Assembly: GCA_000492175.2 (NCBI GenBank)
Contig: CP097573.1
Span: 3,472,001-3,536,000 of the forward strand
DNA: 64,000 nucleotides
Direction: 5' to 3'
DNA from: Firmicutes bacterium ASF500
GTDB lineage: Bacteria > Bacillota > Clostridia > Oscillospirales > Oscillospiraceae
Numbering within the stretch: position 1 is the first letter of the stretch; each line of letters starts with the position of its first letter. The notes under the pieces were generated by a model. That model was not told where the DNA came from. It was given only the letters and a program-made list of their open reading frames with translations, and did not search any database. The translations under genes and the position numbers were made by a program. Of this stretch, positions 14,886 through 62,150 are shown piece after piece.

Positions 14886-14914
14886 TTCACTTTTCCTCGG
14901 CAAAGTGGTATGCT
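14886..14914 (+). promoter_or_regulatory. Promoter of the aromatic amino acid operon
   Basis: TTCACT (14886-14891) and TATGCT (14909-14914) are spaced by exactly 17 bp; each hexamer matches the sigma-A consensus at four of six positions. Transcription would start near 14921, giving a leader RNA of about 190 nt up to the attenuator terminator. Confidence 0.65.
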
Positions 14915-14948
14915 GTGTACAGCTCAAGACATGAAGGAGATACAAACG

Positions 14949-15047
14949 ATGGCTAACATGACTCGCTCCAGCTTTTACCGCTACTTTAGCTTTACCTGCT
15001 TTGAGGGTAAGGCTTGTTTCGGTTTGGCTGAATATGTGGGCGTGTAA
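14949..15047 (+). CDS. Phe/Tyr-rich leader peptide of the aro operon
   Basis: A 32-codon frame with AAGGAG at 14934-14939, 9 nt before its ATG. Five of 32 residues are Phe and three are Tyr, and residues 9-18 contain the cluster F-Y-R-Y-F-S-F-T-C-F. Its stop (15045-15047) lies 31 nt before a strong intrinsic terminator that precedes aroF. This matches the classical leader-peptide attenuation design (pheL, trpL): when charged tRNA-Phe or tRNA-Tyr is scarce, the ribosome would stall at the F/Y cluster and change folding of the downstream RNA. It is too short to be found by usual gene callers. Regulation is inferred from layout. Confidence 0.8.
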   Translation: MANMTRSSFYRYFSFTCFEGKACFGLAEYVGV

Positions 15048-15078
15048 CCTGGTTTTGTAATACCACCAGTGCATGATA

Positions 15079-15108
15079 ACCCGCGGCCAGACCGGCCGCG
15101 GGTTTTTT
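15079..15108 (+). terminator. Attenuator terminator before aroF
   Basis: A 10-bp perfect stem, ACCCGCGGCC with GGCCGCGGGT (15079-15088 with 15094-15103), is followed by a run of six T. It ends 30 nt before the aroF start, so it must be bypassed for the operon to be expressed. A shorter upstream hairpin (CTGGT 15049-15053 with ACCAG 15065-15069) and a possible pairing of GTGGG (15036-15040) with CCCGC (15080-15084) could form the competing structure; I could not fold this quantitatively. Confidence 0.85.
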
Positions 15109-15137
15109 GTACCACTGAAATTGAGGAGGAAGCCGCT

Positions 15138-16151
15138 ATGATCGTCATTTTAAAGCCCAATCACAACCCCGACCAGCTGAACAGCCTGGTCTCCTGGCTC
15201 CAGGAGAAGGGCATCACCATCCACACCAGTATCGGCGAGGCCAACACTGTCCTGGGCCTGGTGGGGGACACCTCCACCCTGGACACCGACCTCATTGCCG
15301 CCCTGGATATCGTGGAGGACGTGAAGCGGGTCCAGGAGCCCTATAAAAACGCCAACCGGAAGTTCCACCCGGAGGACACAGTCATCCAGGTGGGCAGCAC
15401 CCAGATCGGAGGCGGGACCTTGACCATTATGGCCGGGCCCTGCTCGGTGGAGAGCGAGGACCAGGTGGTGGCCATCGCCAAGGCGGTGAAGGCCAGCGGG
15501 GCCACCATGCTCCGGGGCGGGGCCTTCAAGCCCCGTACCTCCCCCTACGCCTTCCAGGGCCTGGGAGAGCGGGGCCTGGAGTATCTGAAAGCCGCCCGGG
15601 CGGAGACCGGCCTGCCCATCGTCACCGAGCTGATGGACCTGAGCCACCTGCCTCTGTTCAAGGATGTGGATGTCATCCAGATCGGGGCCCGGAATATGCA
15701 GAATTTCGACCTGCTCAAGGCGGTGGGCCACCAGGACAAGCCTGTCATGATTAAGCGGGGCATGTCGGCCACCTATGAGGAGTGGCTGATGAGCGCCGAG
15801 TATGTGATGGCTGGGGGCAACGAGAACGTCATCCTCTGTGAGCGGGGCATCCGCACCTTTGAGAGTTACACCCGCAATACCTTGGACCTGGCGGCTATCC
15901 CCGTTCTGCGGCGAATGACCCACCTGCCTGTCATTGTGGACCCCAGCCACGCCACCGGCAAGTATTGGCTGGTAGAGCCCCTGGCTATGGGGGCGGTGGC
16001 GATCGGGGCGGACGGTTTGCAGATCGAGGTCCACAACGACCCCGCCCACGCCCTGTGTGACGGCCCCCAGTCCCTCAAGCCCGAGGCCTTTGATCCCCTG
16101 GCTAAAAAGCTGCTGGCCCTGCACAGCGCTCTCCGGGGCATGGAGGGGTAA
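15138..16151 (+). CDS. aroF: 3-deoxy-D-arabino-heptulosonate 7-phosphate synthase, type I-beta
   Basis: First step of the shikimate pathway: condensation of phosphoenolpyruvate with erythrose 4-phosphate. Residues 1-70 form a ferredoxin-like N-terminal domain (known in related enzymes to bind Tyr or Phe as feedback inhibitor). The barrel carries GPCSVES, LRGGAFKPRTSPYAFQGLG, KRGMSATYEEW, CERGIRTFE and VDPSHATG, including the metal-binding Cys, His and Glu positions. GAGGAGG lies 8 nt before ATG 15138; 337 aa is normal. First structural gene of the aro operon, 3 nt before tyrA. Confidence 0.97.
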   Translation: MIVILKPNHNPDQLNSLVSWLQEKGITIHTSIGEANTVLGLVGDTSTLDTDLIAALDIVEDVKRVQEPYKNANRKFHPEDTVIQVGSTQIGGGTLTIMAGPCSVESEDQVVAIAKAVKASGATMLRGGAFKPRTSPYAFQGLGERGLEYLKAARAETGLPIVTELMDLSHLPLFKDVDVIQIGARNMQNFDLLKAVGHQDKPVMIKRGMSATYEEWLMSAEYVMAGGNENVILCERGIRTFESYTRNTLDLAAIPVLRRMTHLPVIVDPSHATGKYWLVEPLAMGAVAIGADGLQIEVHNDPAHALCDGPQSLKPEAFDPLAKKLLALHSALRGMEG

Positions 16152-16154
16152 GGG

Positions 16155-16991
16155 ATGAGGGTTGGAATCGTCGGTCTGGGCCTGATTGGGGGCTCTATGG
16201 CAAAGAGCGTCAAGGCCCGCACCGGCCACACCGTATACGGCGTCGACCTGGACCAGGAGACCATGATGCTGGCCCGGATGTGCGGGGCCATCGACGGGGC
16301 GCTGGACGGGGACACCCTGCCCCAGTGCGATTTGATTCTGGTGGCCGTCCGCCCCGGCGCGGCGGTGCGCTGGGTCCGGGACCACGCCGTTCAGATTGCT
16401 GGCTCCGCCATCCTGGTGGACCTGTGCGGCGTGAAGCGGACGGTGGTGGCTCAGATCGCCCCCATCGCGGCGGAGCGGGGCTTTGCATACATCGGCGGCC
16501 ACCCTATGGCCGGGAAGGAGCGGGGGGGCTTCACCTCCTCCAGCGACAGCCTGTATGTGGGGGCCTCCATGATCCTCACCCCTGACGAGCACACCGATAT
16601 GAAGCTGCTGGAGACTCTCCAGGCCTTTTTCCTGGATGTGGGCTTCGCCCGCCTCACCTTCTCCAAGCCGGAGGAGCACGACCGGATTATTGCTTTCACC
16701 TCCCAGCTGGCCCACATCGTGTCCAGCGCCTATGTGAAGTCCCCCGAGGCCCAGCGGCGGCGCGGCTTCTCCGCCGGGAGCTTTCAGGATATGACCCGGG
16801 TGGCCCGGCTGGACGAGGACATGTGGACCGAGCTCTTCCTGGACGACGCGGACTTTCTGACAAAGGAGCTGGGTGTCCTCATTGGACACCTGGAGGAGTA
16901 TCGGCAGGCCCTGGAGACCAGGGACGCCCAGCGCCTCCACGACCTCCTCAAGGAGGGCCGGGAGCTGAAGGCCACCGCAGGGGGGAATTGA
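16155..16991 (+). CDS. tyrA: Prephenate dehydrogenase
   Basis: Oxidises prephenate to 4-hydroxyphenylpyruvate, the tyrosine branch. The NAD-binding motif VGIVGLGLIGGSMAKS is at the N-terminus, and the substrate-site segment GGHPMAGKERGGF with its conserved His is at residues about 114-126. The helical C-terminal dimerisation domain follows; there is no ACT domain (278 aa), so feedback control probably lies in AroF and PheA and in the attenuator. Second gene of the operon, followed by a 120-nt gap with a MITE-like repeat. Confidence 0.95.
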   Translation: MRVGIVGLGLIGGSMAKSVKARTGHTVYGVDLDQETMMLARMCGAIDGALDGDTLPQCDLILVAVRPGAAVRWVRDHAVQIAGSAILVDLCGVKRTVVAQIAPIAAERGFAYIGGHPMAGKERGGFTSSSDSLYVGASMILTPDEHTDMKLLETLQAFFLDVGFARLTFSKPEEHDRIIAFTSQLAHIVSSAYVKSPEAQRRRGFSAGSFQDMTRVARLDEDMWTELFLDDADFLTKELGVLIGHLEEYRQALETRDAQRLHDLLKEGRELKATAGGN

Positions 16992-17110: not shown

Positions 17111-18193
17111 ATGTCCATCCAAACCATCCACGTCCGCACCAATCCGGAGTATGATGTTGTCATCGGTCCCGGTCTGTTGAAGGAGTGCGGCTCCCGGCTG
17201 AAGGAGACGGTAGGCCTGTGCCATGTGGCGGTGATCACCGACAGCAACGTGGCCCCGCTGTATCTGGAGACCGTGAAAAGCTCTCTTTTAGAGGCGGGGT
17301 TCCAGGTCAGCACCTACACCTTCCCCGCCGGGGAGGCCCACAAGAATTTCAATACCCTGTCCGATATTTTGGAGTTCCTGGCCGGGGAGCAGCTCACCCG
17401 CACCGACTGCGTGGCCGCGTTGGGCGGCGGCGTCACCGGAGATATGGCGGGGCTGGCCGCGGCCCTGTACCTGCGGGGGGTGAAGTACGTCCAGCTGCCC
17501 ACCACCCTGCTGGCAGCGGTGGACTCCTCGGTGGGAGGCAAGACGGCCATCGACCTGTCCGCCGGGAAAAATCTGGCCGGGGCCTTTATGCAGCCCTCCG
17601 CCGTGATCTGCGACACCGATTGCCTGAAAACTCTGCCCCCCGAGGTCTTTGCCGATGGGGCGGCGGAGGCCCTCAAGACGGGGGTGCTATGCAGTGAGAA
17701 GCTGTTTGCCCGCATGGAGGCCGGACTGAGGGTATCTGAGCTGGAGGAAATCATCGCCCAGTGCGTGGCCTTTAAGGCCGGCGTGGTGGAGCGGGACGAG
17801 AAGGAACAGGGGGAGCGGAAGCTGCTCAATCTGGGCCATACCATCGGCCACGCCATCGAGAAGTGCAGCGATTTCACCATCCCCCACGGCCACGCTGTGG
17901 CGGCGGGGCTGGCTATTATGACCCGGGCGGCCAAGCGGCTGGGCTGGATATCTTCTGAGGGCATCGACACCCGGGCCGCAGACCGCATCTGCTCGACCTT
18001 AAAACTCACGGATCTGCCCACCTCCACGGAGTACCCCCCCGAAGCCCTGGCGAAAGCCGCCCTGTCCGATAAAAAGCGGGCGGGGGACAGCATCACCATC
18101 GTGGTGCCCAGCAAAATCGGCCGCTGTGAGCTGAAAACCATTCCGGTAACTGAACTGTTGTCTGTCATCGAAGCGGGGTGGGCGCTGGAATGA
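17111..18193 (+). CDS. aroB: 3-dehydroquinate synthase
   Basis: Second shikimate step, an NAD- and metal-dependent cyclase of 360 aa. Signature segments: FPAGEAHKNFNTL, ALGGGVTGDMAGLAAALYLRG, PTTLLAAVDSSVGGKTAID, and the metal ligands in LLNLGHTIGHAIE and IPHGHAVAAGL. A GAGAGAAGGA purine stretch precedes the ATG. Its stop overlaps the aroA start (ATGA at 18190-18193). Confidence 0.97.
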   Translation: MSIQTIHVRTNPEYDVVIGPGLLKECGSRLKETVGLCHVAVITDSNVAPLYLETVKSSLLEAGFQVSTYTFPAGEAHKNFNTLSDILEFLAGEQLTRTDCVAALGGGVTGDMAGLAAALYLRGVKYVQLPTTLLAAVDSSVGGKTAIDLSAGKNLAGAFMQPSAVICDTDCLKTLPPEVFADGAAEALKTGVLCSEKLFARMEAGLRVSELEEIIAQCVAFKAGVVERDEKEQGERKLLNLGHTIGHAIEKCSDFTIPHGHAVAAGLAIMTRAAKRLGWISSEGIDTRAADRICSTLKLTDLPTSTEYPPEALAKAALSDKKRAGDSITIVVPSKIGRCELKTIPVTELLSVIEAGWALE

Positions 18194-19419
18194 ACATCCG
18201 CATCACCCCCGGCCCCCTGGAGGGGACTATTACCCCGCCCCCCAGCAAGTCAATAGCCCACCGGGCCATTCTGGCCGCCGCCCTGGCGGAGGGAGTCAGC
18301 ATTCTTCGGAATGTCTGCTTCTCTCAGGACATTGCAGCCACCCTGCGCTGCGCACGGGGATTTGGCTGTTGTCATGGACAGCCGGGATACGCCATTGATA
18401 TTGCCGGCACCGGCGGGGAAAAGCTGACGCCCGGAGAGCTGGTATACTGCGACTGCGGTGAATCCGGGTCCACACTGCGGTTTTTGATCCCCATTACCCT
18501 GGCGTTGGCTCAGGGCGGATACTTTGTGGGAAAGGGCCGTCTGATGGAGCGGCCCCAACAGCCCTACTTCGACATCTTTGACGAGAAGGGCATCTTCTAC
18601 GAACAGAAGGACGGCGCTCTCACTGTCCGGGGGCATCTGGAACCGGGGGAGTACCGCCTCCCCGGAAATATCTCCAGCCAGTTCGTCACCGGACTGCTCT
18701 ATGCCCTGCCCCTGCTGGACGGGGACAGCGAGATCGTGCTCACCTCCCCTCTGGAGAGCCAAGGCTATGTGGACATGACCCTGGATGTGCTGAAAAACTT
18801 TGGAATCACCGCAGAGAACCAGAACTATAAGCGGTTTGTTGTCCCCGGAGATCAGGAATATATCCCCCAAAATGTTACCATCGAGGCCGACTGGTCCCAG
18901 GCGGCGTTCTGGTACGGGGCCATCGCCCTGGGGAATCAGGTGGAGCTGGAGGGCCTGAATGCCTTTTCTACCCAGGGGGATATGTGTATTGTCCCCTGCT
19001 ATTTAAAGCTGCAAGGAGTGGGGGAGGTGGAACTGGATGTCTCCGGCTGTCCCGATTTAGTACCACCCCTGGCGGTCATGTCGGCCCTGCGGGCAGGGGA
19101 GACCACCTGTCTGACCAACGCCGCCCGTCTGCGCATCAAGGAGAGTGACCGTCTGGCCACAGTGACCCAAACGCTCAACACCCTGGGCGCTCAGGTGGAG
19201 GAGGGTCCGGACTTCCTGAAAATCTGGGGCCGGGACGGCCTGGCTGGCGGCGTGACGGTAGACTGCTGCAACGACCACCGCATCGCCATGATGGCCGCCG
19301 TGGCCGCCACCCGGTGCAGGGAGCCCGTCACCCTCCTGGGGGCGGAGTGCGTCAGCAAGTCCTACCCCAATTTCTGGGATGATTACCGTATGCTGGGAGG
19401 GAAATTCGATGTCCTCTGA
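18190..19419 (+). CDS. aroA: 3-phosphoshikimate 1-carboxyvinyltransferase (EPSP synthase)
   Basis: Transfers the enolpyruvyl group of PEP to shikimate 3-phosphate. 409 aa with PPSKSIAHRAILAAALAEG near the N-terminus, CGESGSTLRFLIP, the PEP-site SSQFVTGLL segment, and the C-terminal RIKESDRLATV and NDHRIAMM motifs. The gene is AT-richer in patches than its neighbours but intact. Start fixed by the 4-bp overlap with aroB; it overlaps aroC by 11 bp. Confidence 0.97.
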   Translation: MNIRITPGPLEGTITPPPSKSIAHRAILAAALAEGVSILRNVCFSQDIAATLRCARGFGCCHGQPGYAIDIAGTGGEKLTPGELVYCDCGESGSTLRFLIPITLALAQGGYFVGKGRLMERPQQPYFDIFDEKGIFYEQKDGALTVRGHLEPGEYRLPGNISSQFVTGLLYALPLLDGDSEIVLTSPLESQGYVDMTLDVLKNFGITAENQNYKRFVVPGDQEYIPQNVTIEADWSQAAFWYGAIALGNQVELEGLNAFSTQGDMCIVPCYLKLQGVGEVELDVSGCPDLVPPLAVMSALRAGETTCLTNAARLRIKESDRLATVTQTLNTLGAQVEEGPDFLKIWGRDGLAGGVTVDCCNDHRIAMMAAVAATRCREPVTLLGAECVSKSYPNFWDDYRMLGGKFDVL

Positions 19420-20500
19420 GTTTGGAAAGATTTTAAAGGTGTCGGTCTTCGGACAGTCACACGGGACGGCCATCGGAGTGAATATCGACGGCCTGCCCGC
19501 CGGGGAGACCATCGACCTGGAGGCGCTCCAGCACTTTCTGGACCGGCGCAGGCCGGGGAAAAGCCCCCTGTCCACCGCCCGGAAGGAGGGGGACGTGCCG
19601 GAATTTCTCTCCGGGCTGGAGAACGGCAAAACCTGTGGCGCGCCCCTGTGCGCCATCATCCGGAACAGCGACCAGCACTCCGGTGACTACGCCGAGCTGG
19701 CCGACAAGCCCCGACCCGGCCACGCCGACTATACCGCCTGGGTGAAGTGGAAGGGCCACGCCGATATGCGGGGCGGGGGACACTTCTCCGGGCGGCTGAC
19801 GGCTCCCCTGTGCATCGCCGGGGGCATCGCCAAGCAGATTCTGGCCCGCCGGGGGATTTATGTGGGGGCGCACCTGGACTCGGTGGGCGCCGCCTGCGAT
19901 GAACACTTCCCCCTGTACCCCACAAAGGAGTTGTTCGAGGAAATTGCGGCCAAGCCCTTTCCTGCCCTGAGCGATAACGACGGAGCTCGGATGCAGGATG
20001 TGATTCTGGCGGCAAAGAACGCCCTGGATTCTGTGGGGGGCGTTATCGAGTGCGCCGCCATCGGCCTGCCCGCCGGGCTGGGCGACCCCATGTTCGACGG
20101 GGTGGAAAACCGCCTGGCGGCGGCGCTGTTTGGGATTCCCGCCGTCAAGGGGGTGGAGTTTGGCGCGGGCTTTAACGCCGCGGCCCGCCGGGGCTCGGAA
20201 AATAACGACGCCTTCACCGTGGAAAACGGAAGAATTTCCGCCGGGACCAACCACGCCGGGGGAATTTTGGGCGGCATCACCACCGGAATGCCCCTTGTTC
20301 TGCGGGCGGCGTTCAAGCCCACGCCGTCCATTGCCAGGGAACAGGAAACCGTCAGCCTGTCAAAAATGGAAAATACAAAGCTGCAAATCCACGGCCGCCA
20401 CGACCCCTGCATCGCCCACCGGGCGGTCCCTGTGGTGGAGGCGGTGACGGCCACCGTACTGTTAGACTTACTGTTGGAGGGAAATCATGGAACTTTCTGA
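19409..20500 (+). CDS. aroC: Chorismate synthase
   Basis: Last common step, FMN-dependent anti-elimination to chorismate, 363 aa. The family start motif appears as FGQSHGTAIG (commonly GESHG), and the second signature as RGGGHFSGRLTAPLC rather than the more usual GRSSARETA, so this is the divergent clostridial type. The third signature region HDPCIAHRAVPVVEAV is present. GGGAGG at 19395-19400 lies inside aroA. The end overlaps pheA by 14 bp. Confidence 0.95.
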   Translation: MSSEFGKILKVSVFGQSHGTAIGVNIDGLPAGETIDLEALQHFLDRRRPGKSPLSTARKEGDVPEFLSGLENGKTCGAPLCAIIRNSDQHSGDYAELADKPRPGHADYTAWVKWKGHADMRGGGHFSGRLTAPLCIAGGIAKQILARRGIYVGAHLDSVGAACDEHFPLYPTKELFEEIAAKPFPALSDNDGARMQDVILAAKNALDSVGGVIECAAIGLPAGLGDPMFDGVENRLAAALFGIPAVKGVEFGAGFNAAARRGSENNDAFTVENGRISAGTNHAGGILGGITTGMPLVLRAAFKPTPSIAREQETVSLSKMENTKLQIHGRHDPCIAHRAVPVVEAVTATVLLDLLLEGNHGTF

Positions 20501-21623
20501 AATTCGCGCCAAGATTGACGCCGTAGACGACCAGCTCCTGGACCTGTTCCTGGAGCGCATGGAGCTCAGCGAGGCGGTCGCCGCCTACAAGAACGAGCAC
20601 AAGCTGCCCATCCTGAACAAGACCCGGGAGCGGGAAATTTTAGCCAAGGTCACGGAGCGGGCCGGGGATAAGGAGCGGTATGCCTACCACCTGTACTCCA
20701 CCCTTTTCGAGCTGGCCCGGTCCCGTCAGGCGGAGCTCATCTCCGCCCCCACCAGGGTAGCGGCCCGGGTGGAAGCCGCCCTGGCCTCCAACAGCGAGGT
20801 CTTCCCCCAGACGGGGATGGTGGCCTGCCAGGGGGTGGAGGGGGCCAACTCCCAGGTGGCCTGCGACCGTCTGCTCCCCCGGGGGAACATCATCTATGTA
20901 AAGAGCTTTGAGGCGGTGGTGTCCGCCGTGGAGTCCGGGCTGTGCAAATTCGGGGTTCTGCCCATCGAGAACAGCTCCAACGGCTCGGTCCGGGCGGTGT
21001 ATCAGCTCCTCCAGGAGCACGACCTGAGTGTGGTCCGGTCCGCCCGCCTGTGCATCCGCCATGAGCTGCTGGCCCTGCCCGGGACGAAGCTGGAGGACAT
21101 CACTGAGATTTATTCCCACGAGCAGGCCATTGGACAGTGCTCCAAATTCCTGAGCGGGATGAAGGACGTGAAGGTGGTCCCCTGCGGCAACACCGCCGCC
21201 GCCGCCAAGCTGGTGGCCGAGAGCGGGAATCCCCACGCCGCCGCCATCTCCTCCCACCCCTGCGCCGCCCTCTACGGCCTGGAGTGCGTCAACGGCAGTA
21301 TCCAGGACAGCGACAACAACTACACCCGCTTCATCTGCGTCACCAAGGACCCGGTTATCTACGCCGGAGCCAACAAGATCAGCCTGATTATCGCCCTGGA
21401 CAACAAGCCGGGGGCCCTGTACGAGGTGCTGTCCAAGCTGGCGGCGCTGGACATCGACATGACCAAGCTGGAGTCCTGCCCCGTGGCGGGGAGCGACTTT
21501 GAGTTTGTCTTTTTCCTGGAGCTGGAGGCCAGCGTGAAGGACCCCAGCGTCCGGGCCTGCCTGGAGGAGCTGGAGCGCTCCTGTGCCCAGTTCCATTTCC
21601 TGGGCGGCTACGCGGAAGTGTGA
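20487..21623 (+). CDS. pheA: Bifunctional chorismate mutase / prephenate dehydratase (P-protein)
   Basis: Phenylalanine branch. Residues 1-90 are an AroQ-type chorismate mutase (IRAKIDAVDDQLLDLFLERMELS, with RERE near 60). Residues about 110-290 are prephenate dehydratase (GVEGANSQVACDRLL, LPIENSSNGSV, HEQAIGQCSKFL, NYTRFICV). Residues 297-378 form an ACT domain (NKPGALYEVLSKLAALDIDM then LESCPV) for Phe feedback. Length 378 aa is typical. Overlaps aroC; 4 nt before aroE-aroK. Confidence 0.96.
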   Translation: MELSEIRAKIDAVDDQLLDLFLERMELSEAVAAYKNEHKLPILNKTREREILAKVTERAGDKERYAYHLYSTLFELARSRQAELISAPTRVAARVEAALASNSEVFPQTGMVACQGVEGANSQVACDRLLPRGNIIYVKSFEAVVSAVESGLCKFGVLPIENSSNGSVRAVYQLLQEHDLSVVRSARLCIRHELLALPGTKLEDITEIYSHEQAIGQCSKFLSGMKDVKVVPCGNTAAAAKLVAESGNPHAAAISSHPCAALYGLECVNGSIQDSDNNYTRFICVTKDPVIYAGANKISLIIALDNKPGALYEVLSKLAALDIDMTKLESCPVAGSDFEFVFFLELEASVKDPSVRACLEELERSCAQFHFLGGYAEV

Positions 21624-21627
21624 CGCA

Positions 21628-22872
21628 ATGGGAGAGAAAATTTACGGCCTGCTGGGACGAAAGCTGGGCCACAGCTGGTCCGCCCCCATCCACAAGGCCC
21701 TGGGCTGTGGCAGCTACCGCATGATCGAGCTGGAGCCTGAGCAGCTGGGGGACTTCCTCCGCCGGGAGGACATCGGGGGGCTGAACGTCACTATGCCCTA
21801 TAAGCGGGACGTGATGCCCTTCTGCGACGTGATTGACGAGGGGGCCCAGGCTATTGGTAGCGTCAACACCCTGGTCCGCCGGGGCGGGAAGCTGTACGGC
21901 TACAATACGGATATTGACGGCTTTTTGTACACAGCCCGACGGAGCAAAATCGAGTTTGCCGGGCGGAAGGTTCTGGTTCTGGGCAGCGGCGGGGCGTCCC
22001 TCACCGCTCAGGCCGGGGCGAAGCGGGAGGGGGCCCGGGAGGTGGTTGTCATCTCCCGCTCCGGCCCGAACAGCTATGAAAGCCTAACCCAGTGCCACGG
22101 GGACGGGGAAATTGTGGTCAACACCACCCCAGTGGGGATGTGGCCCGATCTGGAGGGCCGGCCCCTGGACTTGAAGTCCCTGCCCCGGCTGGAGGCGGTG
22201 CTGGACGTGATTTACAACCCCACCCGCACCAGTCTGCTCCTCCAGGCGGAGGAGCTGGGCCTGCGCCGCGCGGGGGGCCTGCCCATGCTGGTGGCTCAGG
22301 CGGTGCGGGCGGAGGAGCTGTTTTTTGAACGGGAGCTCCCGTCCAGCGAGAACGAGCGCATTCTGGCCCAGCTCTGGCAGGACCGGACCAACCTCGTCCT
22401 GGTGGGAATGCCCGGGTGCGGCAAGACCGCCGTGGGCCAGGAACTGGCCCAGCTGTCCGGCAGGCCCCTTGTGGACCTGGACGGGGAGATTGTCAAACGG
22501 GCAGGCAGGCCCATCCCGGAGATGTTCGCTCAGGAGGGCGAGGTGGCCTTCCGGAAGCTGGAGGCTGAGACGCTGGCTGAGGTCTGCGCCCAGGGGGGGC
22601 GGGTTGTCGCCACCGGCGGCGGGGCGGTGCTCCGGGCGGACAACCGGGCCGCCCTGCGCCGCACCGGGCGGGTGTATTTCCTCCGCCGGGACCTGGACCT
22701 TCTGCCCACCGACGGCCGGCCCCTGTCCCAGGCGGGGAGCCTGGAGGAGATGTACCGGGCCCGGAGGCCCCTGTACCAGGCGGCAGCCGACGCGGTGATC
22801 GACAACAGTGTGCCTCTGGAAAAGACCGCCGGACTGATTTGGAGGGATTTTTGTGAACATTCTGGTGATTAA
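21628..22872 (+). CDS. aroEK: Fused shikimate dehydrogenase - shikimate kinase
   Basis: A 414-aa two-domain protein. Residues 1-265 are AroE: LGHSWSAPIHKALG, NVTMPYKRDV with the catalytic Lys, GSVNTLV, GYNTDIDGF and the cofactor loop LGSGGASLTAQ. Residues about 268-414 are AroK: P-loop VGMPGCGKTAVGQEL, DLDGEIVKRAG, RKLEAETL, and the TGGGAVLR motif. The fusion joins two non-adjacent reactions interrupted by none (dehydroshikimate to shikimate to shikimate 3-phosphate), so channelling is possible. A purine-poor start region makes translational coupling to pheA likely. Confidence 0.95.
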   Translation: MGEKIYGLLGRKLGHSWSAPIHKALGCGSYRMIELEPEQLGDFLRREDIGGLNVTMPYKRDVMPFCDVIDEGAQAIGSVNTLVRRGGKLYGYNTDIDGFLYTARRSKIEFAGRKVLVLGSGGASLTAQAGAKREGAREVVVISRSGPNSYESLTQCHGDGEIVVNTTPVGMWPDLEGRPLDLKSLPRLEAVLDVIYNPTRTSLLLQAEELGLRRAGGLPMLVAQAVRAEELFFERELPSSENERILAQLWQDRTNLVLVGMPGCGKTAVGQELAQLSGRPLVDLDGEIVKRAGRPIPEMFAQEGEVAFRKLEAETLAEVCAQGGRVVATGGGAVLRADNRAALRRTGRVYFLRRDLDLLPTDGRPLSQAGSLEEMYRARRPLYQAAADAVIDNSVPLEKTAGLIWRDFCEHSGD

Positions 22873-23296
22873 CGGCCCGAACATGAATTTTTTGGGCATC
22901 CGCCAGCCGGAAATCTACGGGAGGGCCACCTACGACGACCTGAAGGACATGATTTCCGCTGAGGCGGCGGAGCTGGACGTACAGGTGGACTTTTTCCAGT
23001 CCAACCACGAGGGGGCCCTGGTGGACGCCATCCAGCAGGCCTACCTTGACAAAGTAGACGGCATCGTCATCAATCCCGCCGCCTACACCCACACCAGCGT
23101 GGCCCTGCTGGACGCGGTGAAGGCGGTGGGCATCCCCACGGTGGAGGTCCACATCTCCGACCCGGATAGCCGGGAGGAGTTCCGGCATGTGTCTTACGTC
23201 AGACAGGCGTGTGTCGCCACTTTCAAGGGCCACGGCCTGGAGGGCTATCTGGAGGCCATGCGGCTGTTGAGGGACAGGGCAAAAACCCAGTTGTAG
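22853..23296 (+). CDS. aroQ: 3-dehydroquinate dehydratase, type II
   Basis: A 147-aa type II dehydroquinase; forms dodecamers in known cases. Signatures: INGPNMNFLGIRQPEIYG (with catalytic Tyr), FFQSNHEGALVDAIQ, NPAAYTHTSVALLDA, EVHISDPDSREEFRHVSYV. Start is GTG at 22853, 20 bp inside the aroEK end, with GGAGG at 22841-22845. Last gene of the aromatic operon; a new promoter overlaps its stop. Confidence 0.95.
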   Translation: MNILVINGPNMNFLGIRQPEIYGRATYDDLKDMISAEAAELDVQVDFFQSNHEGALVDAIQQAYLDKVDGIVINPAAYTHTSVALLDAVKAVGIPTVEVHISDPDSREEFRHVSYVRQACVATFKGHGLEGYLEAMRLLRDRAKTQL

Positions 23297-23350: not shown

Positions 23351-24301
23351 ATGACAGATGTAGTCGCCTTGGGCGAGCTGCTCATTGATTTCGCCCACAA
23401 GTCTTCTGACAGCGCCGGATACCCGACCCTCGCCGCCCAGCCGGGGGGCGCGCCCGGAAATTTCCTTGCCGCCCTCCAGCGGTACGGCTGTTCCACCGCC
23501 CTGCTGGGCAAGGTGGGGGACGACGCCTTCGGGCATCTGCTGGTGAACACCCTCCAGGAGCTGGGCATCGGGACGAAGGGCATCTTGCGGGACCCCGCCG
23601 TCTTTACCACCCTGGCCTTTGTCACTCTGGACGGCACCGGGAACCGGGAATTCAGCTTTGCCCGCAAGCCCGGGGCCGACACCTGCCTGACCGCCGGCGA
23701 GGTGGACTACAGCCTGATTGACGGGGCCCGGGTCTTTCACTTCGGCACCCTGAGCCTCACCGCCGAGCCGGCCCGCGCCGCCACCCGGGAGGCGGTGGCC
23801 CACGCCAAACAGGCGGGCAAGCTGGTGAGCTTTGACCCCAACCTCCGCAAGCCCCTGTGGGCTAGCGAGGCGGAGGCCAAGGAACAGATTGAGTGGGGCC
23901 TGGGGCAGTCGGACATTGTAAAGATCAGCGACGAGGAGGTGGACTTCCTGTGGGGGCTGTCCCCGGAGGAGGGCGCCCAGAGGCTGTTGAAGGAGTACGG
24001 CGTCAAGCTGGTCTACGTCACCCTGGGGCCCAAGGGCTGTCACTTCGCCAACCAAAACGGCTGCGGGGAGGTGGCCTCCCCCTCGGGCATCCAGGTGGTG
24101 GACACCACCGGCGCGGGGGACATCTTCGGCGGCAGCGCCATGAGCCGCTTCCTCAAGCTGAACAAGGCCCCGGACGGCCTGACGGTGGACGAGATGGAGG
24201 CCGTTACCCGCTTCGCCTGCTGTGCCGCCAGCCTGTCCACCCAGACCCACGGCGGAATTTTCAGCGTCGTCCCCGAAGAGCAGGTGCTGTCCATCCTGTG
24301 A
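23351..24301 (+). CDS. PfkB-family carbohydrate kinase (fructokinase-like)
   Basis: A 316-aa ribokinase-fold sugar kinase. PfkB signature 1 is seen as AQPGGAPGNFLAALQRYG, and signature 2 as DTTGAGDIFGGSAMSRFL with the catalytic Asp. The sequence pattern is closest to fructokinases, but the sugar is not certain and no transporter or glycosidase is adjacent. AAGGAAAGGA lies upstream of the ATG. Own promoter and strong terminator make it a single-gene unit. Confidence 0.88.
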   Translation: MTDVVALGELLIDFAHKSSDSAGYPTLAAQPGGAPGNFLAALQRYGCSTALLGKVGDDAFGHLLVNTLQELGIGTKGILRDPAVFTTLAFVTLDGTGNREFSFARKPGADTCLTAGEVDYSLIDGARVFHFGTLSLTAEPARAATREAVAHAKQAGKLVSFDPNLRKPLWASEAEAKEQIEWGLGQSDIVKISDEEVDFLWGLSPEEGAQRLLKEYGVKLVYVTLGPKGCHFANQNGCGEVASPSGIQVVDTTGAGDIFGGSAMSRFLKLNKAPDGLTVDEMEAVTRFACCAASLSTQTHGGIFSVVPEEQVLSIL

Positions 24302-24345
24302 CGGAGCCGCCCCTCCCTTTATAAAAGTAAGCGGATAGATACAGG

Positions 24346-24393
24346 CCGCGGACCCGCGCAGTATTGGCGCGGGTCCGCGGCGCTGTGCTTTTT
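24346..24393 (+). terminator. Strong intrinsic terminator after the sugar kinase
   Basis: A 14-bp perfect stem, CCGCGGACCCGCGC with its complement (24346-24359 with 24367-24380), has a 7-nt loop. TTTTT follows at 24389-24393, slightly displaced from the stem. Confidence 0.75.
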
Positions 24394-25582: not shown

Positions 25583-27343
25583 TTGCCCCTGCCCGAGCGG
25601 TTTTTGGACGAGCTGCTGGCCCGGACGGACCTGGTGGACCTGGTGTCCGAGTCGGTGCGGCTGACAAAAAAGGGGAACAGCTGGTGGGGCTGCTGTCCCT
25701 TTCACAGCGAAAAGACCCCCTCCTTCCATGTGGTGCCCGACCGTCAGCTCTACAAGTGCTTCGGCTGCGGAAAGGGGGGCGGCGCCATCAGCTTTGTGAT
25801 GGAGCTGGAAAACCTGCCCTTTCGGGACGCGGTGGCGGTGCTGGCCCAGCGGGCCGGGATGCAGATGCCCGAGATGGGCGGCAGTCCGGGCGCGCGGGAG
25901 CGCCGGGAGCGGATCCTTGCCATCAACAAGCAGGCTGCCCGGGCCTTTCACCGCTGGCTCAACAGCCCGGAGGGGGCGGAGGGGCTGGTCTACCTCCAGT
26001 GCCGGGGCCTGTCCAGGCGGACGCTGACCAACTTCGGTCTGGGTTTCGCCCCCGACGGCTGGGAGAGCCTGATCCGGGAGCTGTCCGGCCAGGGCTATGA
26101 CAAGCGGGACCTTCTGGACGCCGGACTGGCTGTCAGCAATAAGGACGGCCGCATCTACGACCGCTTCCGCAACCGGGTGATGTTCCCCATCATCGACGTG
26201 CGGGGGGAGGTCATCGGCTTTGGAGGCCGGGTGATGGACGACTCGATGCCCAAGTATCTCAACTCGCCGGACACGCCGGTGTACAATAAGAGCCGGAACG
26301 TCTTTGCCCTGAACATCGCCAAGCGGTCCAAGACGGGCCGGGTCATCCTGACGGAGGGGTATATGGACACCATCGCCCTCCATCAGGCGGGCTTCGACAA
26401 CGCGGTGGCCTCTCTGGGCACCGCCCTGACGGCGGAGCACGGCCAGCTGCTGGCCAAGTACTTCAAGGAGGCTGTCATCTCCTACGACGGAGACGGGGCC
26501 GGCGTGAAGGCGGCTCAGCGGGCCATCCCGATTCTGGAAAAGGCGGGCATGAAGGTGCGGGTCCTGCAAATGCGGGGGGCCAAGGACCCGGACGAGTTCA
26601 TCAAGGCCTATGGCCGGGAGGCCTTCGCCAAGCTGCTGGACAGCAGCGAGAACCAGGTGGACTACCGCCTGGCCCAGCTGCAAAAGCAATATAACCTGGA
26701 GGACGACGCCCAGCGCATCGCCTTTTTGCAGGAGGCGGCCCAGCTGGTGGCCGCCATCCCCAGCGCGGTGGAGCGGGAGATTTACGGCGGCCACGCCGCC
26801 CGGACGGCGGGAGTCACCCCCGAGGCCATGGGCCTGGAGGTGAACCGGGCCCTGAGGGTCCGCGTCAGCAAGGCGAAAAAGCAGCAGGAGCGCCGGGACC
26901 TGGCTCCGGCGGCCCAGCTCCAGCCCAGAAGCCGGGGTCTGCGGTATGAGAATATCCGCTCTGCCCGGGCGGAGGAGGGGCTGATAGCCCTGCTGATGCT
27001 GGACCCGGGGGCGGTAAAGGAGATGGACGGTATCACGGGGGCAGATTTCTCCTCCCCCCTGCTGGGCCGGGCCTTCGACGGGCTGAGCCGCCGGGCCCGG
27101 GACGGTCTGTCCGTCCAGCTGGCCGCTCTGGCCGAGGAGTTTACCGGTGAGGAGATGGACCATCTGGCCCAGATCGCCATTCAGCCTGTGGCGGCGGGAA
27201 ACACCGCCCGGGCCATAGAGGATTACATATCCGTGATCCGCGGCGAAAAGCTGCTGCGGGCCGGCGGGCCGGAGGACGAGCTCCTTCTGGCCGCGCAGAA
27301 AAAGTATCAACAGAAGAAAGCATATATGGAGGAAAAGAAATGA
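25583..27343 (+). CDS. dnaG: DNA primase
   Basis: Synthesises RNA primers at the replication fork. The CHC2 zinc-binding domain uses Cys37/38, His41, Cys59 and Cys62 ([23 protein letters not shown]). The TOPRIM core shows [18 protein letters not shown] and [12 protein letters not shown]. The C-terminal part would bind DnaB. Start is TTG at 25583, chosen by alignment to the family N-terminus and the GGAGGGAGG tract at 25571-25579; the ATG at 25554 is out of frame. The stop overlaps rpoD (ATGA). Confidence 0.96.
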
Positions 27344-28644
27344 GCACCAAAAAGAAAGAATACACCCTCGAGGCCATTCCTGAGAAGCCGGCGGACATTC
27401 AGACCCGGATGGAGACCGGAAAAATTGAGATCATGAAGGTGGTCGAGGGGGTCGCCGGCGCGGAAAAGCTGAGCGAGCTCATTGAGCGCGGCAAAAAGAA
27501 GGGCCATCTCTCCTCCTCCGAGCTGCTGGACGTGCTGGAGGACATGGAGCTGGGCGCCGAGCAGATGGACAAGATCTACGATACCCTGGAGAACCTGGGC
27601 ATTGAGACGGTGGGGGAGGACTACATCCCCGACCTGGCCGAGACCGGCGAGCCCCCGGTGGAGGAGATGGAGGAGATCGCCGAGGAGGAGATCGTCGATC
27701 CCAATACCCTCATCGACACCTTCGGCACCGACGACCCGGTGCGGATGTATTTGAAGGAGATCGGCAAGGTCAACCTGCTCACCCCCGAGGAGGAGGTGGA
27801 GCTGGCCCAGGCCATGACCGCCGGAGCCGCCGCACAAGAGCAGATGGACGAGCTGAAGCAGTCCGGGGAGGAAATCCCGGAGGAGGTTCGGACCGAGCTT
27901 GAAAAAACCATCAAGAAGGGCGAAAAGGCCCGCCAGCGGCTGGCCGAGGCCAACCTGCGCCTGGTGGTGTCCATCGCCAAGCGGTATGTGGGCCGGGGGA
28001 TGCAGTTCCTGGACCTGATTCAGGAGGGCAACCTGGGCCTGATTAAGGCGGTGGAGAAGTTCGACTATGTGAAGGGCTTCAAGTTCTCCACCTACGCCAC
28101 CTGGTGGATTCGCCAGGCCATCACAAGGGCCATCGCCGACCAGGCCCGGACCATCCGCATCCCCGTCCACATGGTGGAGACCATCAACAAGGTCATCCGG
28201 GTCTCCCGGCAGCTGCTCCAAGAGCTGGGCCACGACCCCACCCCCGAGGAGATCGCTGAGGAGATGAACATGCCCGCCGAGCGGGTGCGGGAGATTTTGA
28301 AGATCGCCCAGGAGCCCGTCTCCCTGGAGACCCCCATCGGCGAGGAGGAGGACTCCCACCTGGGGGACTTCATCCCCGACGAGGACGCCTCCGAGCCCGC
28401 CGAGGCCGCCTCCTTCACCCTGCTGAAGGAGCAGCTCATCGACGTGCTGTCCACCCTCACCCCCAGGGAGGAGAAGGTGCTCAAGCTCCGCTTCGGCATC
28501 GAGGATGGCCGCACCCGCACCCTGGAGGAGGTGGGGAAGGAATTTAACGTCACCCGGGAGCGTATCCGCCAGATCGAGGCCAAGGCCCTCAGAAAGCTGC
28601 GCCACCCCTCCCGGAGCAAGAAGCTGAAGGACTTTTTGAATTAA
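27340..28644 (+). CDS. rpoD: Primary RNA polymerase sigma factor (sigma-70/sigma-A)
   Basis: The housekeeping sigma factor, 434 aa. Region 1.1-like helices fill the N-terminus; region 2 shows [20 protein letters not shown] and [20 protein letters not shown]; region 3 [13 protein letters not shown]; region 4 [21 protein letters not shown]. Translationally coupled to dnaG. Its presence fits the TTGACA/TATAAT-type promoters found across the window. Confidence 0.98.
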
Positions 28645-28694: not shown

Positions 28695-31600
28695 ATGGCA
28701 GACGAAAAAAACAAAAACCCTGAGTCCTATGACCAGGACTCGGTGATGATCTATATTGACCCCAAGGTAATGAGCAGTCTCAACGATATGGCGGAGCGGA
28801 AGAAGCAGGACCTGGAGGCCGTTCAGACGGCCGCTGAGGAGGGGGACCTGGACGCCCAGTACCGCCTGGGCCGCAGCTATTACTACGGCGACGAGGGCGC
28901 CCCCAAGGACGGCGAAAAGGCCTTCTACTGGTTCCAAAAGGCGGCGGAGGGGGACAACATCGCCGCCCAGTACTACCTGGGCCTGTGCTACGCCCGGGGC
29001 GTTGGCGTGGAGAAGGACGAGATCCGGGCGGTGGAGCTGTTCACCGGCGCGTCGGAGGAGGGCTACGCCCCCGCCACCACCGAGCTGGGCCTGTGCTATG
29101 AGTTGGGCCACGGGGTGGAGATGGACAAGGGCCGGGCGGCGGAGCTCTATCAGGAGGGGGCCGACCAGGACTATGCCCCCGCCCAGTGCAACCTGGGGTA
29201 TTTCTACTACCAGGGCATCTATTTTGAGGAGAACAACGACGCGGCGGCGGAGCTGTTTGCCAAGGCCGCCCAGCAGGGCTACCCCCGGGCCCAGGTGCTG
29301 ATGGGCGAGTGCTTTGAAAACGGGTACGGCGTGGAAAAGGACCCGTCCAAGGCCATCGAGCTGTACCGCGCCGCCCACGAGCAGCACTATCCCGACGGGA
29401 CATGCTCCCTGGGCCTGTGCTATGAGGCGGGCGTTGGCGTGGAGGAGGACAAAGCCCGGGCGGTGGAGCTGTACCGCCAGTCGGCGGAGCAGGACTTCCC
29501 CCCCGCCCAGTGCAACCTGGGCTTCTGCTACTACATCGGCATCGGCGTGGAGGAGGACTCCCAAAAGGCTGTGGAGTGGTTCACCAAGGCGGCGGAGCGG
29601 GAGTACCCCCGGGCCATGTTTTTCCTGGGCGAGTGCTACGACCGGGGCTGGGGCGTGGAGCAGAACTACGACCGGGCCGCCAAGCTGTATCAGCAGGCGG
29701 CGGACAAGGAGTACATATCCGCCATGTGCTCCCTGGGCCTGTGTTATGAGCTGGGCCAGGGGGTGGAGCAGGATCAGGCCCGGGCGGTGGGGCTCTACCG
29801 TCAGGCGGCGGAGCGGGGGATGCCCCGGGCCCAGTGCAACCTGGGCTTCTGCTACTACACCGGCATCGGCGTGAAGGAGGACAACGACGAGGCCTTCCGC
29901 TGGTTTACCAAGGCGGCGGAGCAGGACTACCCCCGGGCGATTCACCTGCTTGCCGAGAGCTATGAGAACGGCTACGGCGTGGAGAAGGACCAGGTGAAGG
30001 CGGTGGAGCTGTACGCCAAGGCGTGGGAGCTGGGCTATCCCCCCTCCGCCTGCTCCCTGGGCCTGTGCTATGAGCTGGGCACCGGGGTGGAGGAGGACCC
30101 GGCCAAGGCGGTGGAGCTCTACCGGGCCGCCGCCGAGCGGGACGACGCCCGGGCTCAGTGCAACCTGGGCTTCTGCTACTACCAGGGCATCGGCGTGGAG
30201 GAGGACAACGACCAGGCCTTCCAGTGGTTCTCCCGGTCGGCCTCCGACGGCTACCCCCGGGGGCTGTTCATGCTGGGGGAGTGCTATGAGCGGGGCTTCG
30301 GCACGGAGGCGGACATGGAAAAGGCGGTCTCTCTCTATCAGGAGGCCAGCGACAAGGGCCACATCCCCGCGGTCTGTTCCCTGGGCCTGTGCTATGAGCT
30401 GGGCACCGGCGTGGCGGAGGATAAGGCCAAGGCCAGAGAGCTCTACATCCGTGCCGCCGAGCGGGGCTATCCCCGTGCCCAGTGCAATCTGGGATTTTTC
30501 TACTACCAGGGCATCAGCGTGGAGGAGGACAACGACGAGGCGGTGAAGTGGTTCTCCAGAGCCGCCGCCCAGGGCTATCCCCGGGCCCAGCAGCTTCTGG
30601 GCGAGTGCTATGAGAACGGCTACGGCGTGGAGGAGGACCTGGAAAAGGCGGTGGAGCTGTATACCCAGGCCAGCCAGGCGGGCTATCCCCCCGCCGCCTG
30701 CGCCCTGGGCGTGTGCTATGAGTACGGCGACGGTGTGGAGAAGGACCTGAAGAAGGCGGTGGAGCTGTACCGTCAGGCCGCCGAGGCCGGGGTGGTCCGG
30801 GCTCAGTGCAATCTGGGATATTGCTACTATCGGGGTATCGGTGTGGAGGAGGACGACAGTCAGGCCTTCCAGTGGTTCTACAAGACCGCCCAGCGGGACT
30901 ACCCCCGGGGCATGTGCCTGCTGGCCGAATGCTATGAGAACGGCTACGGCGTGGAGGCGGACATGAGCAAGGCGGTTCAGTGGTACCTCCGGGCCGCCGA
31001 GGGGGACTACCCCCCCGCTATGTGCTCCCTGGGCCTGTGCTACGAGGTGGGCAGCGGGGTGGAGCGGGACCCGGTCAAGGCGGTGGAGCTCTACCGCAAG
31101 GCGGCGGAGCGGGGCCACCCCCGGTCCCAATGCAACCTGGGCTATTGCTACTACCAGGGCATCGGCGTGGAGGAGGACAACGACACCGCCTTCCAGTGGT
31201 TCCAGAAGGCCGCCGCACAGAGCTACCCCCGGGCGCTGTATCTGCTGGGCGAGTGCTATGAGAACGGCTACGGCGTGGAGGAGGATATCCAGCGGGCGGT
31301 AGAGCTGTATCAGCGGGCCCACCAGGGGGGCAGCGCCTCGGGCACCTGCTCTCTGGGCCTGTGCTATGAGCTGGGCCAGGGGGTGACTAAGGATCAGGCC
31401 AAGGCGGTGGAGCTGTACCGTCAGGCGGCGGAGCGTGGCCTGTCCCGGGCCCAGTGCAACCTGGGTTACTGCTATTACGAGGCCATCGGCACGGAGCGGA
31501 ACGACGACGAGGCCTTCCACTGGTTCCTCAAGGCGGCGGAACAGGGCCACGCCAGAGCCCAGTGCATGCTGGGTCTGTGCTATGAGCTGGGCCGCGGCGC

Positions 31601-32051
31601 GGCGGAGGACAAGAAGAGGGCCGCCGAGTATTACCGCCAGGCGGCGGACAACGGCAACGTTACCGCTATGTGCAACCTGGGTTACTGCTACTACACCGGC
31701 ATCGGCGTGGCGGAGGACGAAGCGGAGGCGGTGGTCTGGTTCCGCAAGGCGGCGGACCGGGGCCAGCCCCGGGCGCTGTTCCTGCTGGGCGAGTGCTATG
31801 AGGAGGGCAATGGCGTCCAGGCCGATCTGGACAGGGCCAGAGCGCTGTACCGGCAGGCGGCGGACAAGGGCTATCAGAGCGCCCAGGAGGCCATCCAGCG
31901 GCTGAACGGCCAGCCCGCCAGCCCCTACGCCTACATCCCTCCCGCCAAGGAGGAGCCCGCGCCTCAGCCCCCCGTATCCCCGGCTCCCGCGCCCCAGAAA
32001 GCGCCGGAGAAGAAAAAGAAGGGCGGTCTGTTCGGCTTCTTCAAAAAGTAA
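28695..32051 (+). CDS. Giant Sel1-repeat (SLR) protein
   Basis: A 1118-aa cytoplasmic protein without signal peptide. After a 45-residue acidic head, about 28 Sel1-type repeats of 36 residues run to about residue 1060. They come in sets of three variants: one with CSLGLCYELG, one with CNLGFCYYQGIGVEEDND, and one with LLGECYENGYGVE, making a super-repeat of about 108 residues. The tail is Pro-rich and ends in a Lys/Phe-rich GGLFGFFKK segment. SLR arrays form alpha-solenoids that bind proteins. The gene starts 50 nt after rpoD and may be co-transcribed. The partner is unknown. Confidence 0.88.
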   Translation: MADEKNKNPESYDQDSVMIYIDPKVMSSLNDMAERKKQDLEAVQTAAEEGDLDAQYRLGRSYYYGDEGAPKDGEKAFYWFQKAAEGDNIAAQYYLGLCYARGVGVEKDEIRAVELFTGASEEGYAPATTELGLCYELGHGVEMDKGRAAELYQEGADQDYAPAQCNLGYFYYQGIYFEENNDAAAELFAKAAQQGYPRAQVLMGECFENGYGVEKDPSKAIELYRAAHEQHYPDGTCSLGLCYEAGVGVEEDKARAVELYRQSAEQDFPPAQCNLGFCYYIGIGVEEDSQKAVEWFTKAAEREYPRAMFFLGECYDRGWGVEQNYDRAAKLYQQAADKEYISAMCSLGLCYELGQGVEQDQARAVGLYRQAAERGMPRAQCNLGFCYYTGIGVKEDNDEAFRWFTKAAEQDYPRAIHLLAESYENGYGVEKDQVKAVELYAKAWELGYPPSACSLGLCYELGTGVEEDPAKAVELYRAAAERDDARAQCNLGFCYYQGIGVEEDNDQAFQWFSRSASDGYPRGLFMLGECYERGFGTEADMEKAVSLYQEASDKGHIPAVCSLGLCYELGTGVAEDKAKARELYIRAAERGYPRAQCNLGFFYYQGISVEEDNDEAVKWFSRAAAQGYPRAQQLLGECYENGYGVEEDLEKAVELYTQASQAGYPPAACALGVCYEYGDGVEKDLKKAVELYRQAAEAGVVRAQCNLGYCYYRGIGVEEDDSQAFQWFYKTAQRDYPRGMCLLAECYENGYGVEADMSKAVQWYLRAAEGDYPPAMCSLGLCYEVGSGVERDPVKAVELYRKAAERGHPRSQCNLGYCYYQGIGVEEDNDTAFQWFQKAAAQSYPRALYLLGECYENGYGVEEDIQRAVELYQRAHQGGSASGTCSLGLCYELGQGVTKDQAKAVELYRQAAERGLSRAQCNLGYCYYEAIGTERNDDEAFHWFLKAAEQGHARAQCMLGLCYELGRGAAEDKKRAAEYYRQAADNGNVTAMCNLGYCYYTGIGVAEDEAEAVVWFRKAADRGQPRALFLLGECYEEGNGVQADLDRARALYRQAADKGYQSAQEAIQRLNGQPASPYAYIPPAKEEPAPQPPVSPAPAPQKAPEKKKKGGLFGFFKK

Positions 32052-61913: not shown

Positions 61914-62110
61914 ATGCATCATGTAAGAAAACTCAAAAACCTAAAAGGCAAAGAACCCTGGGAGCAGTTTATGATTTCCCGCAAACGCAAAACCCTTGCT
62001 GTATGTGAAGATTGTCACCATAAAATTCACGGTGACAAAATGGACTGATTGTAGGTAGAGAGCCGGATACATCGAGAGGTGTACGTCCGGTTCAGGGGCG
62101 AGCGCCCGGA
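61914..62110 (+). mobile_element. 3' end of a group II intron (RT tail and domain V)
   Basis: 61914-62048 encodes the HNH-type tail of a group II intron reverse transcriptase (HHVRKLKNLKGKEPWEQFM, then CEDCHHKIHGDKMD). 62060-62093 is a 34-nt domain V: GAGCCGGATACATCGAGAGG...GTCCGGTTC, with the catalytic AGC and a GAGA-type tetraloop. The rest of the intron and RT are missing upstream, where the IS1182 fragment begins. Domain VI probably follows to about 62110. Confidence 0.8.
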
Positions 62111-62150
62111 AACTTGCCATAGCAATATGGTAAGGCGCTGGACGCTTAGC

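Follow-up and report, generated by a model that had tools for sequence, protein, structure and literature searches.

In E. coli, the pheA and pheST attenuators combine a leader peptide containing Phe codons with a layout of alternative 1:2, 2:3 and 3:4 pairings. Firmicutes are generally credited with T-boxes and TRAP for the control of aromatic and other amino acid genes. When a histidine leader was described in bacilli in 2010, its authors stated that they knew of no earlier demonstration of leader peptides beyond Proteobacteria and Actinobacteria, apart from ermC (PMC2965389). Other papers describe His attenuators in the B. cereus group, Eubacteriales, and Erysipelotrichales (PMC9413887), the experimentally tested ilv-leu attenuator Rli60 of Listeria (PMC5864092), and a Phe uORF (uORFC-13-1) proposed before aroF in Acholeplasma, with 24 representatives (PMC8632094); a general survey of leader genes has also been published (PMC4833913). 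The earlier note on the DNA examined here had held that a ribosome-sensing switch summing Phe and Tyr supply would be notable in a clostridial operon, a claim that has to be narrowed, given that the His and Ile/Leu cases and the Acholeplasma Phe uORF are already in print. As for a Phe/Tyr leader before aroF in Clostridia, no report was found in the literature covered, which left out most subscription journals, so that the missing report is weak evidence of absence.

The locus lies in a window of 64,000 nucleotides (i.e., the whole stretch of DNA that was analysed, to which all positions refer). It is very probably a ribosome-mediated transcription attenuator sensing charged tRNA-Phe and tRNA-Tyr and governing a Phe/Tyr operon; this interpretation of the earlier note is supported by a conserved frame of Phe/Tyr codons and by a co-evolving alternative structure. 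Its parts are a short 5' frame with a ribosome-binding site, a cluster of codons for the end products, an intrinsic terminator before the first gene, an antiterminator which, in the decision-point model described below, excludes the terminator, and a 1:2 hairpin embedding the control codons and sharing region 2 with the antiterminator. These features are located as follows:

14886..14914, + strand: probable promoter (from the sequence; letters of the -10 kept in relatives)
14888..14907, no strand assigned: inverted repeat CACTTTtCCtcGGcAAAGTG, a candidate repressor operator, sitting between the -35 and the -10
14934..14939, + strand: ribosome-binding site AAGGAG of the leader frame (from the sequence)
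14949..15047, + strand: leader peptide frame of 32 amino acids with eight Phe/Tyr codons (from the sequence; kept in relatives)
14969..14997, + strand: region 1, codons F9-F15, 5' strand of the 1:2 hairpin (RNA fold)
15005..15030, + strand: region 2, 3' strand of the 1:2 hairpin (RNA fold, alignment of relatives)
15020-15029, + strand: portion of region 2 that doubles as antiterminator 5' strand (fold without the 5' part)
15036..15053, + strand: further antiterminator 5' strand (15036-15046) and arm of a small hairpin (15049-15053)
15078..15094, + strand: region 3, terminator 5' arm and loop (folds, relatives, co-evolution test)
15085-15094, + strand: portion of region 3 that pairs with region 2 in the antiterminator
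15094..15108, + strand: region 4, terminator 3' arm and six-T tract (sequence, covariation)

The promoter, as read from the sequence, consists of a -35 TTCACT (14886-14891), a 17-nt spacer and a -10 TATGCT (14909-14914), the latter being part of an extended -10, TGgTATGCT (14906-14914), whose TG lies one base 5' of the -10. A manual count gives 8/12 matches to the consensus; in a consensus promoter scan, 14886-14914 fell below the threshold and was not among the calls. In the 25 aligned relatives, the T, A, C and T at positions 1, 2, 5 and 6 of the -10 are invariant. The leader frame, which would be translated from a transcript presumably starting 5' of it, runs from the ATG at 14949-14951 to the TAA stop at 15045-15047 and encodes the peptide MANMTRSSFYRYFSFTCFEGKACFGLAEYVGV. 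Its Phe/Tyr codons are F9, Y10, Y12, F13, F15, F18, F24 and Y29; the eight that had been assigned to the first 18 residues are therefore correct in number for the whole 32-codon frame, whereas six of them fall within the first 18. No Trp codon is present in the sensor.

The analysis of the region downstream of the leader disclosed the following genes and signals:

15138..16151, + strand: aroF, DAHP synthase (profile match)
16155..16991, + strand: tyrA, prephenate dehydrogenase (best NCBIfam matches below curated cut-offs)
17111..18193, + strand: aroB, 3-dehydroquinate synthase (NCBIfam above cut-off)
18190..19419, + strand: aroA, EPSP synthase (NCBIfam above cut-off)
19379..20500, + strand: aroC, chorismate synthase (NCBIfam above cut-off; the start may be about 30 nt downstream)
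20487..21623, + strand: pheA, chorismate mutase / prephenate dehydratase (NCBIfam below curated cut-offs)
21628..22872, + strand: aroE-aroK fusion, shikimate dehydrogenase / shikimate kinase (NCBIfam below curated cut-offs)
22853..23296, + strand: aroQ, type II dehydroquinase (NCBIfam above cut-off)
23351-24301: PfkB-like kinase gene, preceding the next hairpin
24345..24381, + strand: strong hairpin of 15 pairs, the longest terminator-like one in the window and the strongest on the + strand, probable end of the transcription unit

Since the scores of tyrA, pheA and aroE-aroK lie below the cut-offs, these three are named by best match. The gene order aroF-tyrA-aroB-aroA-aroC-pheA-aroE/K-aroQ fits the earlier claim that the leader controls the whole aromatic pathway, a claim that also depends on the genes from aroF to aroQ being, as the order suggests, co-transcribed. 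Eight terminator-like sites were found on the two strands of the window against 6.6 expected, so that the weaker internal ones are indistinguishable from chance. Further downstream, a sigma-70-like factor gene (27340-28644) precedes the gene of a 1118-residue protein with many Sel1-like repeats (28695-32051), both named by eye, and a group II intron match of 51.2 bits is located at 62058-62154 on the + strand.

In the 3.67-Mb genome, aroF is the sole PF00793 match, in a search that excluded class II DAHP synthases. No member of PF00425, to which the TrpE/PabB/MenF-type synthases of anthranilate, aminodeoxychorismate and isochorismate belong, was retrieved from the genome, which is 96.8% complete, the same search being positive in 14/14 control genomes; a profile search for IGPS in the genome was likewise negative. 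IGPS was found in 0/13 genomes of the genus and in 29/80 of all those tested (28 above cut-off). On the basis of the missing PF00425 and IGPS genes, the organism probably does not make Trp, and since the Trp branch was undetected, chorismate very probably flows to Phe and Tyr, the same amino acids as those of the leader codons; a leader without Trp codons fits such a genome.

The terminator, located between the leader frame and aroF, is formed by ten perfect pairs (15079-15088/15094-15103), or 11 counting 15078/15104, with the loop AGACC and six T at 15103-15108, which confirms the perfect 10-bp stem with six T noted earlier. The RNA from 14925 to 15110 folds at -69.6 kcal/mol (z -3.92) and beats all 200 shuffles. 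In the fold of the full leader, 14969-14973 pair with 15026-15030, 14977-14980 with 15020-15023, and 14988-14997 with 15005-15014, and the Phe/Tyr codons 9 to 15 sit in the 5' strand of this 1:2 hairpin. When the 5' part and the terminator 3' arm are left out, 15020-15029 pair with 15085-15094 and 15036-15040 with 15080-15084; this shorter antiterminator piece has a z of -1.43, and 20/200 shuffles fold equally well. Since both folds use 15020-15030, this stretch is common to the 1:2 hairpin and to the 2:3 antiterminator, which takes up the terminator 5' arm and loop. An alternative structure including the 5' arm, on which the earlier interpretation had been made to depend, thus exists by folding, and across clades it co-evolves with the arm. 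In 25 relatives, 63-91% of the cells of 15036..15053 are paired. The exact pattern of the leader hairpins has no second copy in the genome.

The arrangement suggests the following mechanism. If charged tRNA-Phe or tRNA-Tyr were scarce, the ribosome would stall at leader codons 9-18 and cover region 1, so that region 2 (15020-15030) could bind region 3 (15085-15094); the 2:3 pairing would block the terminator, and the RNA polymerase would read into aroF and the later genes. If both charged tRNAs were plentiful, the ribosome would reach the stop codon, where it would cover region 2 together with the antiterminator strand next to it; transcription would then end at the 3:4 terminator after about 190 nt.

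In order to assess how far these features extend among relatives, the regions upstream of aroF were analysed. Genomes with aroF matches were 47/64 in the genus, 243/300 in the family, 193/297 in the order, 218/293 in the class, and 266/299 in the phylum; the upstream regions examined, a subset, were taken from the best aroF matches and from 100 further stretches selected to span genera and families, so the sample is not random (loci L069-L128 and L264-L303 were hand-picked over genera and families). A script searched for ribosome-binding motifs followed by a frame of 12-60 codons that has six or more F/Y within 18 residues and ends 45 nt or more before aroF. Such a frame is present in 186/235 sampled aroF loci, with a terminator after it in 170/235, and in 0/846 control windows placed elsewhere in the loci, so relatives do keep the small frame with its F/Y codons, as had been anticipated. 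The frame was found in 29/30 loci of the genus, 69/85 of the family, 24/26 of the order, 21/28 of the closest class members, 27/39 of the class spread over families, and 16/27 of the phylum, counts which are not independent events, the loci being mutually related. Of 169 upstream regions, 143 hold the frame and 128 the frame plus the terminator, against means of 2.35 and 0.05, respectively, in their dinucleotide shuffles. The terminator rule was then relaxed (from 128 to 130 of the 143 loci) because stems running into the T tract had been missed. Duplicates (L124 of L021, L314 of L274) were dropped from the counts, as were loci with less than 330 nt upstream (3/172 in the shuffle comparison; L279 in the 235-locus count), and 80 further loci (L184-L263) were inspected and left out.

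The 49/235 loci scored as leaderless by the script speak against an attenuator. Among the loci so scored, L295, L322 and L325 have a frame further upstream, and L070 and L080 a frame with no recognised ribosome-binding motif; in L028, the terminator lies at -374, so that a leader would fall outside the stretch examined.

Phe/Tyr-rich frames occur in the culturable Oscillibacter valericigenes Sjm18-20 (MSTFTFAAEYRYFSFTYYFGKAYFGLAENECV), whose leader is of the window's type, in Yanshouia hominis, in Clostridium chromiireducens and in a Pelosinus genome, in the last of which no terminator was found by the script. Two types of leader can be recognised. The first, that of the window, has TTT AGC TTT ACC ... 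GGT AAG GCT (SFT..GKA); the second, found in some members of the class and phylum, has (F/Y)FS(A/T)G(Y/F), in which Ser is usually encoded by AGC, and in many cases a terminator carrying CTCATT. The second core, or one near to it, was seen in distant Clostridia and other Bacillota (L264, L286, L292, L294, L296, L319, L320, L243). Three loci of the family f22 (L166, L178, L179) share a different frame before aroF, TTRFTSFGYPR(F/Y)F..AW.F, which includes Trp codons; their terminator is GC-rich. Of the three genomes, G378 and G437 have IGPS and G448 lacks it. Asked whether Trp codons mark the leaders of species that still make Trp, the loci gave the following counts: a Trp codon is found in the leaders of 14/52 loci whose genomes lack IGPS and of 13/28 with it (Fisher p 0.089).

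Covariation was analysed in 25 close relatives. The terminator stem shows double changes at 5/11 pairs (17 cells; 0/500 shuffles). In the 1:2 hairpin, 86% of the cells are paired and six pairs show double changes, a number reached by 8/500 shuffles; its outer helices, paired in just 56-68% of cells, weigh against the attenuator. In the 2:3 core, 98% of the cells are paired and the changes are one-sided only, and the whole 2:3 structure, to the disadvantage of the attenuator, has no excess of double changes (two pairs, matched by 433/500 shuffles), as region 2 hardly varies among these relatives; the mutually pairing GCTTTAC and AAGGC are invariant, wobble bases included, in all 25 rows of the window's clade. 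A more powerful comparison was made across clades: for each of 130 loci, the pairing of region 2 with its own terminator arm was set against its pairing with the arms of other loci. The own 2:3 pairing beats the additive expectation in 110/130 loci, by a mean of 3.3 kcal/mol, and is better than the foreign-partner expectation in 34/37 arm clusters (Wilcoxon p 3e-9). A looser clustering, which merged 118/130 loci in one cluster, gave the same sign as the stricter one with 37 clusters. The specificity is moderate, since in the median locus 12% of the foreign arms pair at least as well as the own arm (less than 5% do so in 42/130 loci); compared with its shuffles, region 2 has a mean z of -1.74 (n = 130), with p <=0.05 in 50. 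The compensatory changes that had been proposed as a check on the stems were observed in the terminator and in the 1:2 hairpin; 2:3 shows no excess of them within the close relatives, and across clades region 2 co-evolves with the terminator arm.

The effect of the ribosome position was modelled at the decision point, i.e., on an RNA ending at 15094, before the terminator 3' arm emerges, with folding limited to the RNA past the leading edge of the ribosome. In this model, helix 2:3 has a probability of 0.89-0.96 with the ribosome at codons 1-20 and of 0.00 at codons 21-33, so that in the model a ribosome at codons 9-18 favours antitermination and one at the stop codon favours termination. Two outcomes of the same model are unfavourable to the attenuator: the terminator arm enters other upstream pairings (0.95, 0.59 and 0.33 for a ribosome at codon 21, at codon 25 and at the stop, respectively), and the truncated RNA free of ribosomes also forms helix 2:3 (0.96). 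In the relatives, the arm is sequestered above 0.5 in 125/130 loci when the ribosome stands at the median Phe/Tyr codon, in 44/130 when it stands at the stop codon and in 74/130 when there is none; mean sequestration in the 130 loci is 0.78 for the stall, 0.39 for the stop, 0.52 with no ribosome and 0.59 with a shuffled spacer. The stall exceeds the stop by more than 0.3 in 81/130 loci and the opposite holds in two, a gap that is partly trivial, as a ribosome nearer the stop leaves a shorter stretch of RNA to fold, so that shuffling the intervening RNA is the fairer control. The stall differs from this control as well (0.78 vs 0.59; Wilcoxon p 4e-16); against the attenuator, 98/130 loci pass 0.5 even with the intervening RNA shuffled.

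Full-length equilibrium folding did not reproduce the switch: in the equilibrium fold to 15108 with a masked ribosome, the terminator of the window keeps a probability of at least 0.63 at every ribosome position, and more than 0.5 of the terminator is lost in 14/130 loci only, both of which count against the attenuator. The model thus relies on the co-transcriptional order of synthesis.

Other explanations of the locus can be weighed against these data. It is quite unlikely that a DNA-binding repressor acting at the inverted repeat of the promoter exerts the main control, with the leader tuning basal expression. The repeat CACTTTtCCtcGGcAAAGTG does lie inside the promoter spacer, and in the alignment, counted by eye, both arms are exact in 15/18 rows of the genus; however, they are exact in 0/7 of the other rows, and L015, L016, L018 and all of L032-L038, in which the arms are broken, retain the leader. 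With up to two mismatches, a pattern search of the genome retrieved the aroF site alone (a reversed control pattern gave two sites), leading to the rejection of a regulon, and a candidate repressor protein was not identified. Among shuffles of the window, 30/100 hold at least one match with up to three mismatches; the real site has no mismatch. As to a T-box or another known riboswitch, whose probability is practically negligible, its case draws on the frequent use of T-boxes in Firmicutes and on 11 T-box matches elsewhere in the genome, six of them above the gathering score; among eight of these regions that were fetched, four precede valS-, ilvB-, leuA- and glyS-like genes, recognised by eye. 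At the aroF locus, in contrast, no Rfam family reaches its cut-off, the T-box (RF00230) was rejected, having no match at the gathering score or at E <=10, and the eight weak matches at E <=10 include neither a T-box nor a known amino acid leader, RF01859 (Rfam Phe_leader) being absent among them. Nor was any Rfam match found in 60 aroF loci from relatives, a scan which includes 28/49 leaderless loci (16 + 12), 11 leaderless loci of the phylum lying outside it.

The remaining alternatives concern the peptide itself. An arrest peptide, whose nascent chain would sense free Phe/Tyr, the stalling not deriving from uncharged tRNA at the F/Y codons, could account for the recurrence of the SFT..GKA and (F/Y)FS(A/T)G(Y/F) cores in distant families, but is made very unlikely by the leaders of L086, L120 and L161, which have F/Y runs alone and neither core, and by the Ser of both cores being nearly always encoded by AGC (by eye), a codon choice pointing to a constraint on the RNA. 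The frame might instead encode a stable functional small protein (e.g., a membrane peptide), the hairpin being merely the terminator of its gene. The aromatic, hydrophobic character of the peptide favours this, as does its core SFTxF-GKA, which shows strong conservation among close relatives and turns up again in other families. Such a protein is extremely improbable in view of the leaders of other clades, which range from the common core to F/Y runs alone, of the pairing GCTTTAC/AAGGC being kept down to its wobble bases, and of the co-evolution of region 2 with the terminator arm, all of which are at odds with it.

The Phe/Tyr attenuator is hence the reading that we retain. A broader possibility is that the Phe/Tyr attenuators form one ancient family, present since the early Clostridia, prevailing there in the control of DAHP synthase and reaching other Bacillota; the ribosome logic would have persisted through repeated changes of sequence and stems, and the attenuator would not be isolated to one operon. 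We regard the case for this broader reading as evenly balanced. If the attenuator reading holds for the window and for the 186/235 sampled loci that resemble it, leader-peptide attenuation would be a major regulatory mode in these anaerobes, many unannotated frames of 15-60 codons would receive a function and an amino acid, the tuning of the shikimate pathway to Phe and Tyr only, in species probably not making Trp, would be explained, and many loci would be available in which to follow the evolution of attenuator strands with the switch preserved. It is also worth considering that, in a genome with T-box matches elsewhere, the sole DAHP synthase gene of the PF00793 family would be preceded by a leader that the ribosome reads.

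How does the locus compare with the known systems? The E. coli pheA and pheST attenuators respond to Phe only and stand before a branch gene or a synthetase, whereas the window has mixed Phe and Tyr codons with DAHP synthase and a shikimate operon downstream. A T-box, like the proposed leader, senses uncharged tRNA before amino acid operons; unlike it, the sensor proposed here is the translating ribosome, and no T-box match was found at the locus. PMC2965389 and PMC9413887 describe leader-peptide attenuation in Firmicutes, Clostridia included, but with His codons and the his operon or hisS/hisZ as targets. Rli60 (PMC5864092) is a ribosome-mediated attenuator in a Firmicute too, but an experimentally tested one, with branched-chain codons and the ilv-leu operon. 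The likeness to uORFC-13-1, as PMC8632094 describes it, includes a short uORF with Phe codons before a DAHP synthase gene, followed by an intrinsic terminator, for which attenuation was proposed; compared by description, that uORF is reported from Acholeplasma and unassigned environmental sequences only and with 'at least one' Phe, while the leader of the window has eight Phe/Tyr codons, a defined 1:2 / 2:3 / 3:4 switch and a spread across Clostridia. The mechanism is therefore known, partly so in Firmicutes, and, within the literature covered, what appears to be new is the pair of amino acids, the target and the breadth of its distribution.
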